64,000 nucleotides of DNA from Paraglaciecola hydrolytica (lineage in GTDB: Bacteria > Pseudomonadota > Gammaproteobacteria > Enterobacterales > Alteromonadaceae): NCBI RefSeq assembly GCF_001565895.1, contig NZ_LSNE01000015.1, positions 127,397 through 191,396 on the forward strand. The letters are read 5' to 3'. Of the stretch, positions 56,556-64,000 are shown in pieces. The notes under the pieces are model-generated. The model saw only the letters and a program-made list of their open reading frames with translations. It was not told where the DNA came from and ran no database searches. Every line of letters begins with the position of its first letter. The first letter of the stretch is position 1. The translations under genes were made by a program, and so were the position numbers.

Positions 56556-56690
56556 TTATAGGTAGTACACAAACCAACCAATGATGGCGTTCATCAAAGG
56601 TAAAGCTAACAAAACCACTAACGCGGCTGCAACATACCCCCAGCTAAAAGGATCATTTTTTGCATTTTCATGTTGCATATCTTGTTGCAT
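56556..56690 (-). CDS. 44-residue single-pass membrane protein of the bufferin operon
   Basis: 44 residues from ATG 56690 (GGAG seven bases upstream; the longer TTG start at 56750 is less likely). Polar N-terminus 'MQQDMQHENAKNDPFSWG', then one hydrophobic helix (about 19-42) ending 'GWFVYYL'. It lies about 95 bases after the DUF2063 gene on the same strand. Not a recognised family; it may take the place that DoxX-type BufD holds in other bufferin operons, or be a separate small gene. Confidence 0.55.
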   Translation of the reverse strand: MQQDMQHENAKNDPFSWGYVAAALVVLLALPLMNAIIGWFVYYL

Positions 56691-56784
56691 AGCGGGACTC
56701 CAAACAGACAATAATGATTGAATCAAATCAGGGGCGAGATGGTAAAACAAAGTGCTGCAAATTGGTAGCTTTTACATTGGCGCA

Positions 56785-57543
56785 CTAAGACTCTGCACAG
56801 GGCAATAGAATCTCTTTTGTTAACATTTGTTGGATAATTTCAGACAGCGCTGAATCCAATTGTACTAATGATAGTTGTGGTAAAATTGGGGCTAAAACAT
56901 CGTGAAGCTCATTAATATTAATACTTTCTTGCTGTTGAATGATATCCAGTAAATGTGCCGTTAGTGGGTTGAGTAGAACAAAATTCACTTCATCTTGTTT
57001 ATCTCGGCAAACCACCAAATAAACAGCTTCACCCTGCTGTTGTGGTTGAAACTCAGGGCTGACCTGATGTACCGGATAGTGATAACTCACCAAGGAAGCT
57101 AAAGGCGAAAACTGCACTGCCTTAACCTCAGATTGTCCATCCCAAAGCACGATATCTTGCTCTGTTTTACGAATACTGACAGACAGCTCTAACCATTCGT
57201 AATGGGCCAGTTCTTTTAGAAAAGGCGGATCATTTGGCTTTAACTCATATTCTTCACTTAAAAATTCAACAAACTCTAAACTGATATCAATAAAGTAGGG
57301 TGAGCGACAATGATGACTGGCCATAAACTGGCGAGCCAAACGCCGCCATTCATTAGTGTTATACAGCGACTCAAGGACAGGAAACCCAGAACTTAAAAAG
57401 CCTAAAATATTATTAAAAAACAGCTCTCGATAAATACTCAGCCTACGCTCTTCTATAACTTGATCTGAGCCTAGCTCAAAAGGATGCTGTTCAGGATCTT
57501 TCAGGTGAGCAACAAAATGATGCTGAATGTTTTGGAAATCCAT
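56785..57543 (-). CDS. bufC: DUF2063 (BufC/HvfC-type) partner of the MNIO enzyme
   Basis: 252 residues. DUF2063 N-terminal helical domain ('ERRLSIYRELFFNNILGFLS', 'RQFMASHHCRSPYFIDIS', 'ELAHYEWLEL'), then a C-terminal domain resembling a RiPP recognition element. In bufferin/HvfA systems this protein binds the precursor and presents it to the MNIO enzyme. ATG 57543 starts two bases past the bufB stop; the longer ORF start would overlap bufB. Confidence 0.88.
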   Translation of the reverse strand: MDFQNIQHHFVAHLKDPEQHPFELGSDQVIEERRLSIYRELFFNNILGFLSSGFPVLESLYNTNEWRRLARQFMASHHCRSPYFIDISLEFVEFLSEEYELKPNDPPFLKELAHYEWLELSVSIRKTEQDIVLWDGQSEVKAVQFSPLASLVSYHYPVHQVSPEFQPQQQGEAVYLVVCRDKQDEVNFVLLNPLTAHLLDIIQQQESININELHDVLAPILPQLSLVQLDSALSEIIQQMLTKEILLPCAES

Positions 57544-57544
57544 C

Positions 57545-58393
57545 TTATGCCAGCCTTTTGCTAACATTTGCCAACGCTGCGGCCTGTTGCAGTTGTTTGA
57601 TATGGGTGACTTCGCTGAGTAACTCAGTCAATGGTGGAATATTAAAATCACGCTCAAGCACTGTTGGAAAAACGCCATGTAATTCATAGGCTTGTTGCAA
57701 TAATTGCCAAACAGGCTCAATGACATCGGCGCCGTGAGTATCGACTTTTAAATCATCGGCTTCATCATAATGCCCGGCAATGTGGCCATAGGCTATTTTA
57801 TCGCTCGGCATCGCTGCTAAAAACTGGCTGGCATCATAACGATGGTTAATAGAGTTTACGTAGATATTGTTCACATCGAGTAAGAGCATACAGCCGGACT
57901 CTTTAAGTATGCTCAAGGTAAACTCTTGCTCGGTCATTTGCTGACCCGGCGCGGCATAATAGGATACGTTTTCTAAGACCAAAGGGCGTTCAAGAATATC
58001 CTGTACTTGCTTAACTCTTTGCACCACATGTTTGACTGCTTCCTCAGTAAAGGGAATTGGCATCAAGTCATAAAGATGGCCATTGCCTGAGCAATAACTT
58101 AAATGCTCGCTATAAAACAGAATATGGTGTTCGTCTAAAAAACCTTTAACGGCCTTAACAAAATTCACATCCAATGGATCGGGGCTACCAATAGATAATG
58201 ACAGACCATGGCAGACAAAGGTGTTTTGCTCGGTAAATTGGCGCAATATTTTTTGATATTTACCGCCCATGGGGATCCAGTTTTCTGGGGCTATTTCCCA
58301 AAAATCCATGCCTTGGGCACTTGGCAAAACGTGGCTAAGCATCTCACGACGCAAACCGAGCCCAGCCCCACTTAAGGTTTTGCTATTTAACAC
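57545..58393 (-). CDS. bufB: MNIO (DUF692) multinuclear non-heme iron oxygenase, bufferin-type
   Basis: 282 residues. DUF692 TIM-barrel enzyme of the MbnB/BufB/HvfB type, which uses a di/tri-iron centre to modify Cys in a RiPP precursor. Family markers with likely iron ligands: 'GLGLRREML', 'EIAPENWI', 'FVCHGLSLSIGSPDPLD', 'LFYSEHLSYCSG', 'LVLENVSYY', 'LLLDVNNIYVNSINH', 'YGHIAGHYDEADD', 'DTHGADVIEPVW'. GTG start 58393. It follows the EGKCG-repeat precursor and precedes the DUF2063 gene. Confidence 0.93.
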   Translation of the reverse strand: MLNSKTLSGAGLGLRREMLSHVLPSAQGMDFWEIAPENWIPMGGKYQKILRQFTEQNTFVCHGLSLSIGSPDPLDVNFVKAVKGFLDEHHILFYSEHLSYCSGNGHLYDLMPIPFTEEAVKHVVQRVKQVQDILERPLVLENVSYYAAPGQQMTEQEFTLSILKESGCMLLLDVNNIYVNSINHRYDASQFLAAMPSDKIAYGHIAGHYDEADDLKVDTHGADVIEPVWQLLQQAYELHGVFPTVLERDFNIPPLTELLSEVTHIKQLQQAAALANVSKRLA

Positions 58394-58424
58394 CGCAACA
58401 CGCCCCCCAATTTCATAAATGATA

Positions 58425-58445
58425 AGGCCAGCATAAGCTGGCCTC
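58425..58445 (-). terminator. Hairpin between precursor and MNIO genes
   Basis: AGGCCAGC and the near-complement GCTGGGCCT enclose a 4-base loop with one bulged G. On the minus strand the following bases are T-rich but broken (TTATCATTT). A plausible attenuator that would keep precursor mRNA above enzyme mRNA. Confidence 0.45.
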
Positions 58446-58463
58446 GTTTATACCCTACCCTCT

Positions 58464-58563
58464 TGAAATTGCACTTTTGTTGGCTTCACTCATTCGCCTT
58501 GATGTGCTCTAGTCACTTGAGCTCAAGGGGTCTCATTTATATGACGCCGCCGTGTAATTCCAA
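58464..58563. repeat. Dispersed inverted-repeat element, copy C
   Basis: The left end TTGAAATTGCAC and right end GTGTAATTCCAA are near-complements (10 of 12). The element sits between the bufferin precursor and the MNIO gene. Interior blocks (GTTGGCT, CATTCGC, AGTCACTT, GCCGCCGTG) match copy A. Being hairpin-forming inside the operon, it may affect transcript processing. Confidence 0.7.
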
Positions 58564-58587
58564 TGGTGTGGGATAAGACCTGTTGAC

Positions 58588-59094
58588 TTAGGCTTGACCA
58601 CCACACTTGCCTTCGCCACATTTACCTTCTTTTTTCATTTTATCTTTGGCTGCATCTTTGGTTTTATCGGCACCACATTTACCTTCGCCGCACTTACCCT
58701 CTTTTTTCATTTTGTCTTTGGCTTTATCGGCGCCACATTTGCCTTCGCCACACTTACCTTCACCGCATTTGCCTTCTTTCATGTCTTTGGCAGCGTCTTT
58801 GGCTTTATCACCTCCGCACTTCCCTTCACCACATTTGCCTTCGCCGCATTTACCTTCTTTCATATCTTTAGCCATGGCTTTGGCTTTTTCTTCACCACAC
58901 TTGCCTTCTTTATCTTTGGCATCTTTGCTTTTGTCTGCGCCACAACTGCCTTCTGCAGCACTTAACATATAACCTGATTCTAAAGACTGCATGCCAAAAG
59001 GATTAGTAGTGGCTTGTGCGCTTAGACTGGCTAAAGAGCCAATCACCACAGCTCCAATAGAACTTGCGATAGTGGTTTTTTTAATTTGTTTCAT
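58588..59094 (-). CDS. bufA: Bufferin-type RiPP precursor with 11 EGKCG motifs
   Basis: 168 residues. N-terminal signal peptide (1-27, 'GSLASLSAQA') as in bufferin/HvfA precursors, whose products are exported. The body is almost wholly Lys/Glu/Gly/Asp/Ala with 12 Cys, at 51, 66, 83, 88, 93, 110, 115, 120, 135, 140, 159 and 164. Eleven are in EGKCG motifs, arranged 1+3+3+2+2 and separated by charged spacers such as 'DKAKDAAKDM'. In characterised relatives EGKCG cysteines are oxidised by the MNIO enzyme to Cu-binding heterocycles. ATG 59094 with AAGGA upstream is preferred over an upstream start. Confidence 0.92.
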   Translation of the reverse strand: MKQIKKTTIASSIGAVVIGSLASLSAQATTNPFGMQSLESGYMLSAAEGSCGADKSKDAKDKEGKCGEEKAKAMAKDMKEGKCGEGKCGEGKCGGDKAKDAAKDMKEGKCGEGKCGEGKCGADKAKDKMKKEGKCGEGKCGADKTKDAAKDKMKKEGKCGEGKCGGQA

Positions 59095-59209
59095 AAGTGA
59101 TATCCTTGAGTTGTAACACAATTACGGGCTTGGTACGTTTACGTTCAGAACAGCAGACCTAGAGTCGCATTTATTTATTTCATCCATAAACACTTTTCAC
59201 ACAAATTAA

Positions 59210-60464: not shown

Positions 60465-60649
60465 TCAACCCTATTATTTTCTTAAACTTCTGGATGCCCA
60501 GTGTTGGTATTAATATTCACATGTCTGCTTAGGATCTGCATTAACAAATAAGCCTATATGTATAGCAATTCTAACCATGACAATACATTTTATACCAAAC
60601 TTTTAGCAAATTAGTTTATGTTATCACTATGTGATGAAGAGGAATGCCT

Positions 60650-61195
60650 GTGAGAATGCAAAAAGGGTTATCCCTGATTGAAATGTTAGTCAGCCTAGCC
60701 ATAGTCTCGATAATAGCTATGGCTGTCAGCCCAAGTATTCAGAGCATTCTGATAAAAAACAGAATTGTATCTGAAATCAATGAGTTAAGCGCGGTAATTC
60801 AGTTTGCCCGCAATAACGCCATCGATGAGCAAATTACCACCGTGGTATGCCCATCAGCAGATTATTTAGCTTGTAACACCAACTGGAACGATCCCAAAAT
60901 AGTCTTTGTGGACAGTGATAACGATGGCGATCGTGGTGCGGCAGAAGAACTCTTAGCAACAACTAGCGCCATATCCGACAACAATATCCTTAGTGGGCCC
61001 AACCTCCCCTTATTTTTTACCCCTAGCGGTGAAGCACTCGCTAATACCATATTATTGTTTTGTCACAAGAGTAAAAAGGCAGATTACGCACGCTCACTGA
61101 CTATCGCCTTACAAGGACGTGTCAAAGTCAGTAGTGACAGTGACAGAAATGGCATTCATGAAGATGCTACAGGTGCGGCCCTTAGCTGCCCTTAG
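60650..61195 (+). CDS. FimT/GspH-type minor pseudopilin
   Basis: About 181 residues from the chosen start. Prepilin leader ending 'MQKG', then 'LSLIEMLVSLAIVSIIAMAV' with Glu5: a type IV prepilin. A GspH/FimT domain follows ('VIQFARNNAIDEQITTVVCP', 'KIVFVDSDNDGDRGAAEELL'-type strands). Minor pilin that helps start the pilus or binds DNA, as FimT does. GTG 60650 is preferred because AGAGGA lies seven bases upstream; ATG 60644 and ATG 60656 are alternatives. Confidence 0.85.
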   Translation: MRMQKGLSLIEMLVSLAIVSIIAMAVSPSIQSILIKNRIVSEINELSAVIQFARNNAIDEQITTVVCPSADYLACNTNWNDPKIVFVDSDNDGDRGAAEELLATTSAISDNNILSGPNLPLFFTPSGEALANTILLFCHKSKKADYARSLTIALQGRVKVSSDSDRNGIHEDATGAALSCP

Positions 61196-61782: not shown

Positions 61783-62247
61783 TTAACAACTCCAGCAATA
61801 TTCTGCCGCACTGACTGAGCCGTTATTGTCTTTGTCCCACGCCCGTCTGCCATCACTGTAAAATAATAGACTGCCGTCACCACTTTGCATGCTGCTGGAT
61901 GTGGGCTTGGCTTCCAGTATGTAATTACTACCAGCCGCCTGTTTGATGGTTAAATCATATTTACGGTCAGCATATGGCTCGGCTGAGGGAGAATGTTTGT
62001 GATAGATAGTGGGAGCGCCAGTATCGGCTGCCGACACGGCGGCGGCCTTATATGTAAAACTTGCGGCTTTGTGACGCTCCATCGCCGCAGCAAAAGACAT
62101 CAAATCCGCCTGGGCAGCAGAACGATTACTGCCCTTAATAAATCCTTGATAACTCGGGTAAGCAATCATGGTAAGGATGCCCATAATAGCCACCACTATC
62201 ATCAGTTCAACCAGCGAAAACCCTGTATTGTTTGTTCGTTGATACAT
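61783..62247 (-). CDS. pilE: Type IV minor pilin PilE
   Basis: 154 residues. Prepilin leader then 'FSLVELMIVVAIMGILTMIA' with Glu5, 'YPSYQGFIKGSNRSAAQADL' and a PilE-type globular domain ending in 'AAEYCWSC' with C-terminal cysteines. Minor pilin of the FimU-PilVWX-PilY1-PilE operon. ATG start 62247, two bases after pilY1. Confidence 0.92.
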   Translation of the reverse strand: MYQRTNNTGFSLVELMIVVAIMGILTMIAYPSYQGFIKGSNRSAAQADLMSFAAAMERHKAASFTYKAAAVSAADTGAPTIYHKHSPSAEPYADRKYDLTIKQAAGSNYILEAKPTSSSMQSGDGSLLFYSDGRRAWDKDNNGSVSAAEYCWSC

Positions 62248-62249
62248 GT

Positions 62250-64000
62250 CTATTGCCTTTCAGTTTCGGTTTTCCAGCTACTTTTTTGTACTCGTTCAAA
62301 GTTACTGTAGATATTTTCTGCCAGACAACCAAAATCTGAGGTACAAGCGACTTGGTTGCCATTAGCGTCCAGCTCAATAACCGTGGATGCACATTCGGTA
62401 CCTAAGCATACTATGGGTTTAATAATATCTTCTATTAGGATCTTAGTATCTGGCGCAATCCCAGTTTGTTTCAATTGAGCATAGCGGTCTTGATGATCCG
62501 ATTCACCATTTTTATTCAGATCCGTTACCGCATTACCGTTTATTAACTCCACCAAATACGCGCGGCTATTACCCGAAGGTGGTGCACAAGCGCTTTTACT
62601 GGCTGTGGCAGGTAAATAGGTGGTAAAAATAATCTGATAATCCAAGATCAAAGGTGAGGCGAGAACTTTCTCTCCTCCTTCATCCAGTTTTAAATACCAG
62701 CCAGACAATTGTGCAAACTGATTGGCCTCCACTTGCTGCACTGTGGTATCGCTAGAGGTTAAGAGATGACTAGTGGCATCGTATAAACTTGAGGTACTAA
62801 GTACGGTTGAAGGTAAAGAGTAATCTCCATCAACATCTAGGGTAAATACGCCGGTATCTTTAATCATGTAAAAATGATCTTCAATAACGCTGTTCAGTGG
62901 ATGGGCTCTGAAACCCGAGCCTAAGGCAACAGCGTAATAATGCTCTGCACCTAAGCTAATTTCGGTCACATCTGGGCCATAATAAAAACGACGATTATCT
63001 GCAGCGGTACTGCCACCAAAATCCGCCATTAAACCACCCGTCACCAAATCCGCTAAACTTTCACCGTTATGAATATCTAAACGAAATAATTGCCCGCCGG
63101 TATCAGCAACATACATATGATCAGCAAAACCATCGTTGTCACGGTCTATCACCGAAATCCGTGCAGGGATACTGTATTGCATCGTACTGAGGTTAAAGTT
63201 TGCGCCATTATTACTTGCCGACCAAATTAACTGGCCATTATCAGCATCAACAATATAGACAGCATTACCAACATTGTCGGCACTACGCGTAGCTTTACTG
63301 TCTTGATCTTCATCGTAACCACCACCAAATATCAGTACGTTTTTAGCCGTCGCGCCTAGGCGAATTTTAGTGATTGTAGGTTTTGACCAAGTTTGACCTA
63401 ACTTGGCAAAGTTAGCGCTGCCACCTTCAATTTTAAACAATAACTTAGGTGATGTTTTGCTGGTGATATCAAATGCATAATAGTTTTTGCCACCGCGGCG
63501 CATGCCCACATACAGGTATTTGTTATTACCCACGGTGCGTAACACCATGTCACCATCTAAACCATAAATATGTGAAAAGGTTGAACTATCACGATAAAGA
63601 TCATAAAGATTACCCATCAATTCTCTTGGCATAATGGCAAAGTTTTCAGTGCCGGTATTAGGATCAAAAGAGTGCAGATAACCATGATTGGTGGCCACCA
63701 ATACAGCACTGTCAGTGAGGGTATAATTAACAATCACAGGCTGAGAATGGATCGGATCGCCCATTTGCTGACGAGTATCGTTATACAGTCCGTCACCGTC
63801 ATCATCGCGCACATCAACACCACGGGCCCATTGCAATACCGTTTCACGCACAGTGGCTGAATTCGGTACAGCTGCAATCCCTAAATCATTAACGGTAAAA
63901 TTGCTATTGTTTTCGTGTACCAAATTAGCGGCCGTCAAAATATTACCGCTACCAGAGAAGGCATAAACATTTCGTGGCAAACCCATTTGACTGGCGGTCC
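62250..64000 (-). CDS. pilY1: PilY1 C-terminal region (runs off the window edge)
   Basis: At least 583 codons; the frame is open to 64000, so the 5' end lies outside the window and the Met at 63986 is internal. Type IV pilus tip adhesin / biogenesis factor. Beta-propeller C-terminal domain: 'GDPIHSQPVIVNYTLTDSAV', 'GYLHSFDPNTGTENFAIMP', 'YLYVGMRRGGKNYYAFDI', and a Ca-binding loop 'VIDRDNDGFADHMYV' (DxDxDGxxD). Cotranscribed with pilE. Confidence 0.93.
   Translation of the reverse strand, partial: TASQMGLPRNVYAFSGSGNILTAANLVHENNSNFTVNDLGIAAVPNSATVRETVLQWARGVDVRDDDGDGLYNDTRQQMGDPIHSQPVIVNYTLTDSAVLVATNHGYLHSFDPNTGTENFAIMPRELMGNLYDLYRDSSTFSHIYGLDGDMVLRTVGNNKYLYVGMRRGGKNYYAFDITSKTSPKLLFKIEGGSANFAKLGQTWSKPTITKIRLGATAKNVLIFGGGYDEDQDSKATRSADNVGNAVYIVDADNGQLIWSASNNGANFNLSTMQYSIPARISVIDRDNDGFADHMYVADTGGQLFRLDIHNGESLADLVTGGLMADFGGSTAADNRRFYYGPDVTEISLGAEHYYAVALGSGFRAHPLNSVIEDHFYMIKDTGVFTLDVDGDYSLPSTVLSTSSLYDATSHLLTSSDTTVQQVEANQFAQLSGWYLKLDEGGEKVLASPLILDYQIIFTTYLPATASKSACAPPSGNSRAYLVELINGNAVTDLNKNGESDHQDRYAQLKQTGIAPDTKILIEDIIKPIVCLGTECASTVIELDANGNQVACTSDFGCLAENIYSNFERVQKSSWKTETERQ

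Follow-up and report, generated by a model that had tools for sequence, protein, structure and literature searches.

A probable HvfABC captophorin operon in Paraglaciecola hydrolytica and its enzyme-free relatives within the family

Oxazolin or captophorin operons, in which an iron oxygenase of the MNIO (DUF692) family and a DUF2063 partner (PME type 1) accompany an exported precursor with EGKCG repeats, are a widespread and already characterised kind of gene cluster for ribosomally synthesised and post-translationally modified peptides (RiPPs). The papers on them are cited here, by PMC number, for the parts of their text that were available. Every characterised product of an MNIO-PME type 1 pair is described as carrying 5-thiooxazole and as generally binding copper (PMC13097082); some of these products had been taken by other groups to contain oxazolone-thioamide. 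For one member, bulbicupramide, loss of four hydrogens per cysteine and chelation of copper are reported in PMC12538549, which leaves the choice between 5-thiooxazole and oxazolone-thioamide undecided. The present analysis concerns an operon of this appearance in Paraglaciecola hydrolytica (Alteromonadaceae; assembly GCF_001565895.1), located on a stretch of 64,000 nucleotides of contig NZ_LSNE01000015.1 (positions 127,397 to 191,396), which is referred to as the window and whose numbering is used throughout. By itself the locus extends a class believed to give many Pseudomonadota protection against copper; of greater weight is the comparison with its relatives, some of which appear to carry the precursor and no modifying enzyme.

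Gene content, class and precursor of the operon

Three genes follow one another along the minus strand in the order precursor, DUF692/MNIO enzyme and DUF2063 protein: hvfA (58588..59094), encoding a precursor of 168 amino acids with 12 Cys, hvfB (57545..58393; 282 amino acids, GTG start) and hvfC (56785..57567; 260 amino acids, DUF2063 with an RRE-like C-terminal domain, PME type 1), with an overlap of 23 nt between hvfC and hvfB. All features of this locus described below lie on the same strand unless noted. The coordinates of the open reading frames (ORFs), together with the profile scores, bear out the first-pass annotation, made from the letters alone, as to the three genes, their single strand, their order and the 12-Cys precursor; of the span that it claimed (56556-59094), the operon part stands, while the low end is the stop of a separate ORF of 44 amino acids. 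The genome holds one MNIO match and one KCG-repeat gene in total, inside and outside the window taken together.

A search with DUF692 and DUF2063 profiles had been proposed in that annotation as a check on its placing of the enzyme, and it placed HvfB inside the MNIO family (Pfam MbnB_TglH_ChrH, PF05114, 349 bits). HvfB also scored 439 bits with the NCBIfam HvfB model (NF003818; cut-off 360). HvfC matched the Pfam domains DUF2063 (PF09836, 88 bits) and NGO1945_C (PF22106, 85 bits) and the NCBIfam HvfC model (NF050145, 270 bits; cut-off 142), while HvfA matched the KCGExKCG_twice repeat model (NF050137) in five stretches with 88.3 bits (cut-off 19.5); such scores are well beyond what chance would give. 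The solved relatives were 3BWW for HvfB (E 9e-66) and 3DEE for HvfC (E 4.6e-8). For comparison, 80 loci were fetched by their enzyme and joined to the window to give a near sample of 81, which leans toward close relatives because the best 80 of 567 enzyme matches were taken. R15 was conserved in 98.8% and R16, D249 and F250 in 100% of these 81 loci; the window HvfB carries all four, at residue numbers identical to those of FonB, in which they are described as serving contact with the substrate Glu, catalysis and Lys-Cys selectivity (PMC13097082). Given the NCBIfam and Pfam matches and the conserved numbering of these residues, the locus is very probably a standard HvfABC captophorin (oxazolin) operon.

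A true bufferin system, with a precursor of the Buf1/DUF2282 or Buf2 kind, shares the superfamilies of enzyme and partner with this operon, and HvfB scored 268 bits with the BufB equivalog NF050167 (MNIO_BufB). This score lies under the BufB cut-off of 310, whereas that with the HvfB model lies over its cut-off, and the enzyme was therefore placed in the HvfABC branch and not with bufferins proper; moreover, the precursor had no Pfam match at E 0.1, hence no DUF2282, it consists of EGKCG repeats, and the enzyme carries the Lys-Cys-class residues R16 and F250. A bufferin assignment is thus highly improbable, and of the earlier label "bufferin-type" the part that stands is an MNIO plus DUF2063 RiPP operon. 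Equally improbable is a methanobactin-like oxazolone-thioamide chemistry serving copper uptake: oxazolin was originally assigned that structure, as PMC13097082 recounts, and the NCBIfam name retains it, but the structure was revised to 5-thiooxazole by alkylation-assisted NMR (PMC13097082), HvfB scored 40.6 bits with the MbnB equivalog (cut-off 325), and the neighbouring glnB, nadE, apt and dnaX (named by reading) include no evident uptake gene.

The start of hvfA was placed at the ATG at 59094, which has an AAGGA site upstream. The precursor begins with a presumed Sec signal peptide, MKQIKKTTIASSIGAVVIGSLASLSAQA (59011..59094), recognised by eye from its basic N-end, hydrophobic core and AQA, and continues with the leader box LESGY (LxxGY; 58969..58983), a proposed recognition element for HvfBC, and a core (58591..58953) in which one EGSCG and eleven EGKCG sites are joined by Lys/Ala/Asp linkers, all 12 Cys fitting E-G-[KS]-C-G. 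With this signal-like N-terminus and these cysteines, the earlier description of an exported-looking Cys-repeat precursor was judged right.

Complete precursors were available from 66 of the 81 near loci, the other 15 having a contig end, masked bases or no recognised precursor. A farther sample was drawn from the family (20 of 93 genomes over the HvfB cut-off) and gave 16 complete precursors; left out were L301, a fragment, and L295, L296 and L298, whose fetched stretches lack a KCG ORF. The leader box, as [LM]xx[GA][YF], was present in all enzyme-linked precursors (66/66 near, 16/16 farther), a GAVV-like signal core in 57/66 and 11/16, and a PF motif after the signal in 65/66 and 10/16. Glu stood three residues before Cys (C-3) at 770 of the 773 Cys of the near precursors and at 189 of 192 in the farther loci, where the three other cases fall in the over-extended start of L290. 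The expressions for LxxGY and the signal core were written after viewing sequences and then checked on the 20 later-chosen loci. Three loci with HvfB and no adjacent KCG ORF (L298, L295 and L296, from genomes G056, G168 and G202) come from genomes that each have a KCG-repeat match, so that precursor and enzyme may lie apart in these. Genome G010 had been a further candidate for hvfB without hvfA and was rejected, since only 142 nt separate the hvfB match from the contig end upstream and the absence is not a real one.

The precursor had also been called unusually repeat-rich, which was not upheld. Across the 66 near precursors, window included, KCG counts ranged from 5 to 24 with a median of 12, compared with 11 in the window; the median number of Cys was likewise 12, with at least 12 in 39/66, and the published EGKCG class reaches 58 Cys (PMC12452194).

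Promoter-like element, hairpin and downstream genes

Alignment of 15 upstream regions yielded a promoter-like element, TGAAAT-N17-GGTCT, which in the window lies at 59155..59182, 60 nt before the hvfA ATG. The near sample, which includes the window, had this strict form in 58 of its 66 upstream regions, where dinucleotide shuffles predict 0.04; the regions outside the discovery set account for 43 of these (of 51). Across both strands of the 64-kb window it was matched a single time. The farther family loci had the strict form in 9/16 and a loose form, [TC]GAAA[TG]-N15..18-GGTC[TAG], devised post hoc after seeing the misses, in 11/16; the element is common there, not universal. By its shape we take the element to resemble the -35/-10 pattern of extracytoplasmic function (ECF) sigma factors. 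Its conservation would suggest control by a sigma factor of this kind and not by a dedicated copper regulator. This reading fits the homologous operon of Haemophilus influenzae, which is reported to depend on RpoE2, an ECF factor, and to be induced by hypochlorite (PMC7907618). Control by sigma factors is in itself no novelty, since ECF regulation has been published for related DUF692 operons (PMC3511200, PMC7907618); the element TGAAAT/GGTCT was not met among the papers listed on ECF sigma factors, DUF692, DoxX and copper, some of them judged by title, and this is no proof of its absence. For hvfABC operons the element offers a DNA handle on regulation.

Between hvfA and hvfB lies a terminator- or attenuator-like hairpin (58424..58445) with a 9-bp stem, 6 of the pairs GC, and a T-rich tail. 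Terminator-like hairpins were found in 26 of the 51 hvfA-hvfB gaps of at least 30 nt (0.1 expected), and the likely effect is the production of more precursor than enzyme.

No DoxX (BufD) gene was found in the window operon, the next genes on the same strand being the 44-amino-acid ORF and apt. The first-pass annotation had pointed to this gap; it is correct for the locus and is not an unusual trait, as DoxX was present in just 6/81 loci, a count for which one of the three queries (from L006) was in the wrong frame and some loci end at contig ends. Three DoxX matches were found in the same genome away from the locus, and these were rejected as remote members of the regulon because neither form of the element was found in the 14 kb around each. 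One of them, a DoxX of 203 amino acids (L284, own genome C2, 6858-7466), is similar to the DoxX encoded next after hvfC in a number of loci from Arsukibacterium (L037, L051, L072).

The ORF of 44 amino acids (56556..56690), which has a single transmembrane-like (TM) segment, is a conserved neighbour of apt. Relatives of 39-44 amino acids occupy the same place in 67/81 loci, all 67 of which have apt, and in 0/13 loci without apt (L015 among the 13 is cut short); the small TM ORF was also found in 163 of the 196 family genomes surveyed below, some of them without any MNIO, and apt lay near it in 18/20 selected loci without an adjacent MNIO. The candidate of a fourth operon gene was ruled out by this linkage to apt and this presence in MNIO-free genomes, and the ORF is regarded as lying outside the operon. 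It has a motif like DPFNxxYFLA; no confident match was obtained for 20 members against NCBIfam and Pfam, or for two against PHROGs.

Several observations weigh against the assignment to the standard HvfABC class and its proposed control. One of the 12 core sites is EGSCG, the narrower HvfA equivalog NF050188 scored 57.6 bits, under its cut-off of 95, the strict element is missing from 7/16 farther family loci, and it is equally absent around the three DoxX genes of the genome itself.

Relatives with the precursor and without the enzyme

A total of 196 genomes of the window's family was surveyed with the KCG-repeat model and, for MNIO, with PF05114. The KCG repeat family was present in 144, MNIO in 146 and both in 116, leaving 28 precursor-bearing genomes from 11 genera in which a match to MNIO was absent. 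Of these genomes, ten consist of a single contig and four are less than 90% complete; DUF2063 was matched in 0/28, against matches in two control genomes. In a further 27 precursor-bearing genomes of the family all MNIOs fell under the HvfB cut-off. Outside the family, 80 of the 95 precursor-bearing genomes of the class were tested and MNIO was found in 79, the exception being G346, which argues that the lack of the enzyme is concentrated in the window's family. It has been reported that 67 of 2583 EGKCG genomes are without MNIO, and the discussion of that paper supposes that their precursors either act unmodified or have lost their function (PMC12452194). The enzyme-free branch itself was not found in the literature on MNIO precursors or on copper in Paraglaciecola and Alteromonadales, and the available parts of PMC12452194 are silent on it.

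Complete precursors were obtained from 26 of the 28 enzyme-free loci (L255-L282), leaving out L267 (contig end) and L276 (masked). All of their 316 Cys sit in KCG, with 8-19 per protein; every one of the 26 genes mixes TGT and TGC (102 minority codons), and not a single GKxGE unit with a lost Cys was seen. The leader box LxxGY was found in 0/26, against 82/82 enzyme-linked precursors, the enzyme-free set having been tested with Y only (no F form occurred in the leaders viewed). A GAVV-like signal core was retained in 4/26 and PF after the signal in 26/26, and the C-3 residue was Glu at 152 and Lys at 139 of the 316 Cys. Upstream, the strict element was present in 13/26 (0.02 expected) and the loose, post hoc form in 24/26.

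Features lost in these proteins are those that the enzyme should read, because FonBC fails to process Arg at position three before Cys (PMC13097082) and HvfA minus its signal sequence is modified poorly (PMC13419390). One account of the contrast is that EGKCG repeat proteins do something useful in their own right, independent of thiooxazole, and that in one branch of the family hvfBC, standing between hvfA and the next gene downstream, were lost; selection would then have kept the cysteines and largely the same element while LxxGY, the signal core and Glu decayed. We rate this account at about even chances, because the repeats may be modified by an unknown enzyme or may have changed their function. 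The Cys-retention count is favourable by design, as the search model demands KCGE repeats and misses decayed copies, and it is further weakened by the spread of repeats through duplication. If the account is true, the basic means of buffering metals or oxidants would be unmodified thiols, with MNIO chemistry as an upgrade. The enzyme-free relatives are an experiment of nature in which the requirements of the enzyme (the leader box, Glu at position 1) can be told apart from those of the cell (Cys), and they give a directly testable control for what thiooxazole adds.

In 12 of the 26 enzyme-free loci the small TM ORF was located at most 450 nt downstream of the precursor, the place of hvfBC in relatives, and loss of hvfBC in place is therefore the simplest history. 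Two trees were built from Apt and DnaX, a quick one of 99 loci and a second of 67, for which 18 farther HvfB loci were added, doubles removed and near loci thinned to 22; both were fast trees with no outgroup and with long-branch warnings. In both, the 15 usable enzyme-free loci (of 28) formed one group (SH-aLRT 100) with no HvfB locus inside, and in the second the group also held seven loci, namely three from additional enzyme-free genomes, one from a genome lacking both genes and three from genomes with other MNIOs. The loss was thus probably one old event, in which case the sequence contrasts amount to a single comparison and not to 26. A CheY-like receiver of ~130 amino acids, recognised by reading, separates the small TM ORF from apt in many loci of this branch (L178, L182-L184, L186-L188, L194-L197).

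The retention in these relatives of 316/316 repeat Cys, and of the element in 13/26 (strict) or 24/26 (loose, post hoc), also bears on the role of the product. A periplasmic thiol or oxidant buffer within an envelope-stress regulon, with copper secondary, would agree with it, as with the ECF-like element upstream of hvfA and the RpoE2-dependent hypochlorite induction of the Haemophilus homologue (PMC7907618); published members bind Cu, however, and bufferins aid growth under copper (PMC12452194). Such a main role is possible, though decidedly the lesser prospect, and by analogy with homologues the product of the window operon is a probable copper binder, as the first-pass annotation held.

Proposed mechanism, surroundings and comparison with known systems

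For the locus itself, gene content, family, specificity residues, the conserved promoter-like element, the hairpin and the leader box were computed; chemistry, copper binding, dependence on HvfC and sigma control are carried over from homologues. On this footing, an ECF-type stress sigma factor would start transcription at 59155-59182, and the hairpin after hvfA would pass only part of the transcripts into hvfBC, so that precursor exceeds enzyme. The signal peptide and the LESGY box would act as leader for the RRE domain of HvfC, while the iron cluster of HvfB would remove four hydrogens per Cys along successive EGKCG units to give 5-thiooxazoles, up to 12 here. Sec would export the product, cleavage after AQA would remove the signal, and in the periplasm the protein would bind copper(I).

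The operon is flanked by glnB and nadE upstream and by the 44-amino-acid ORF, apt and dnaX downstream, on the same strand throughout (names from reading the sequences). Type IV pilin-like genes (GspH/FimT-like and PilE-like) and a PilY1-like protein, judged by eye, lie near the end of the window at 60644-61195 (plus strand), 61783-62247 (minus) and 62250-63986 (minus).

Among the described systems, bufferins 1 and 2 (BufABCD) resemble the window operon in combining an MNIO with a PME type 1 partner, in an exported precursor, presumed so for the window, and in copper, the probable ligand here, and differ in that their precursors belong to other families (DUF2282; 6/12-Cys). The mmrABC operon of Microbulbifer (bulbicupramide) shares the EGKCG cassettes and the restriction to A, B and C, with 5-8 Cys there compared to 12 in the window precursor. 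The fontiphorin operon fonABC of Fontimonas thermophila, among the captophorins, has the same minimal set without DoxX and the same R15, R16, D249 and F250 numbering, with 7 sites there compared to 12 here. The oxazolin operon hvfABC(X) of H. influenzae differs in its 6 Cys, compared to 12 here, and in its DoxX-like HvfX, which is not in the window locus; it has in common an EGKCG precursor with a signal peptide, presumed in the window, as well as HvfB and HvfC, and the sigma-factor control known there is likely for the window operon too.

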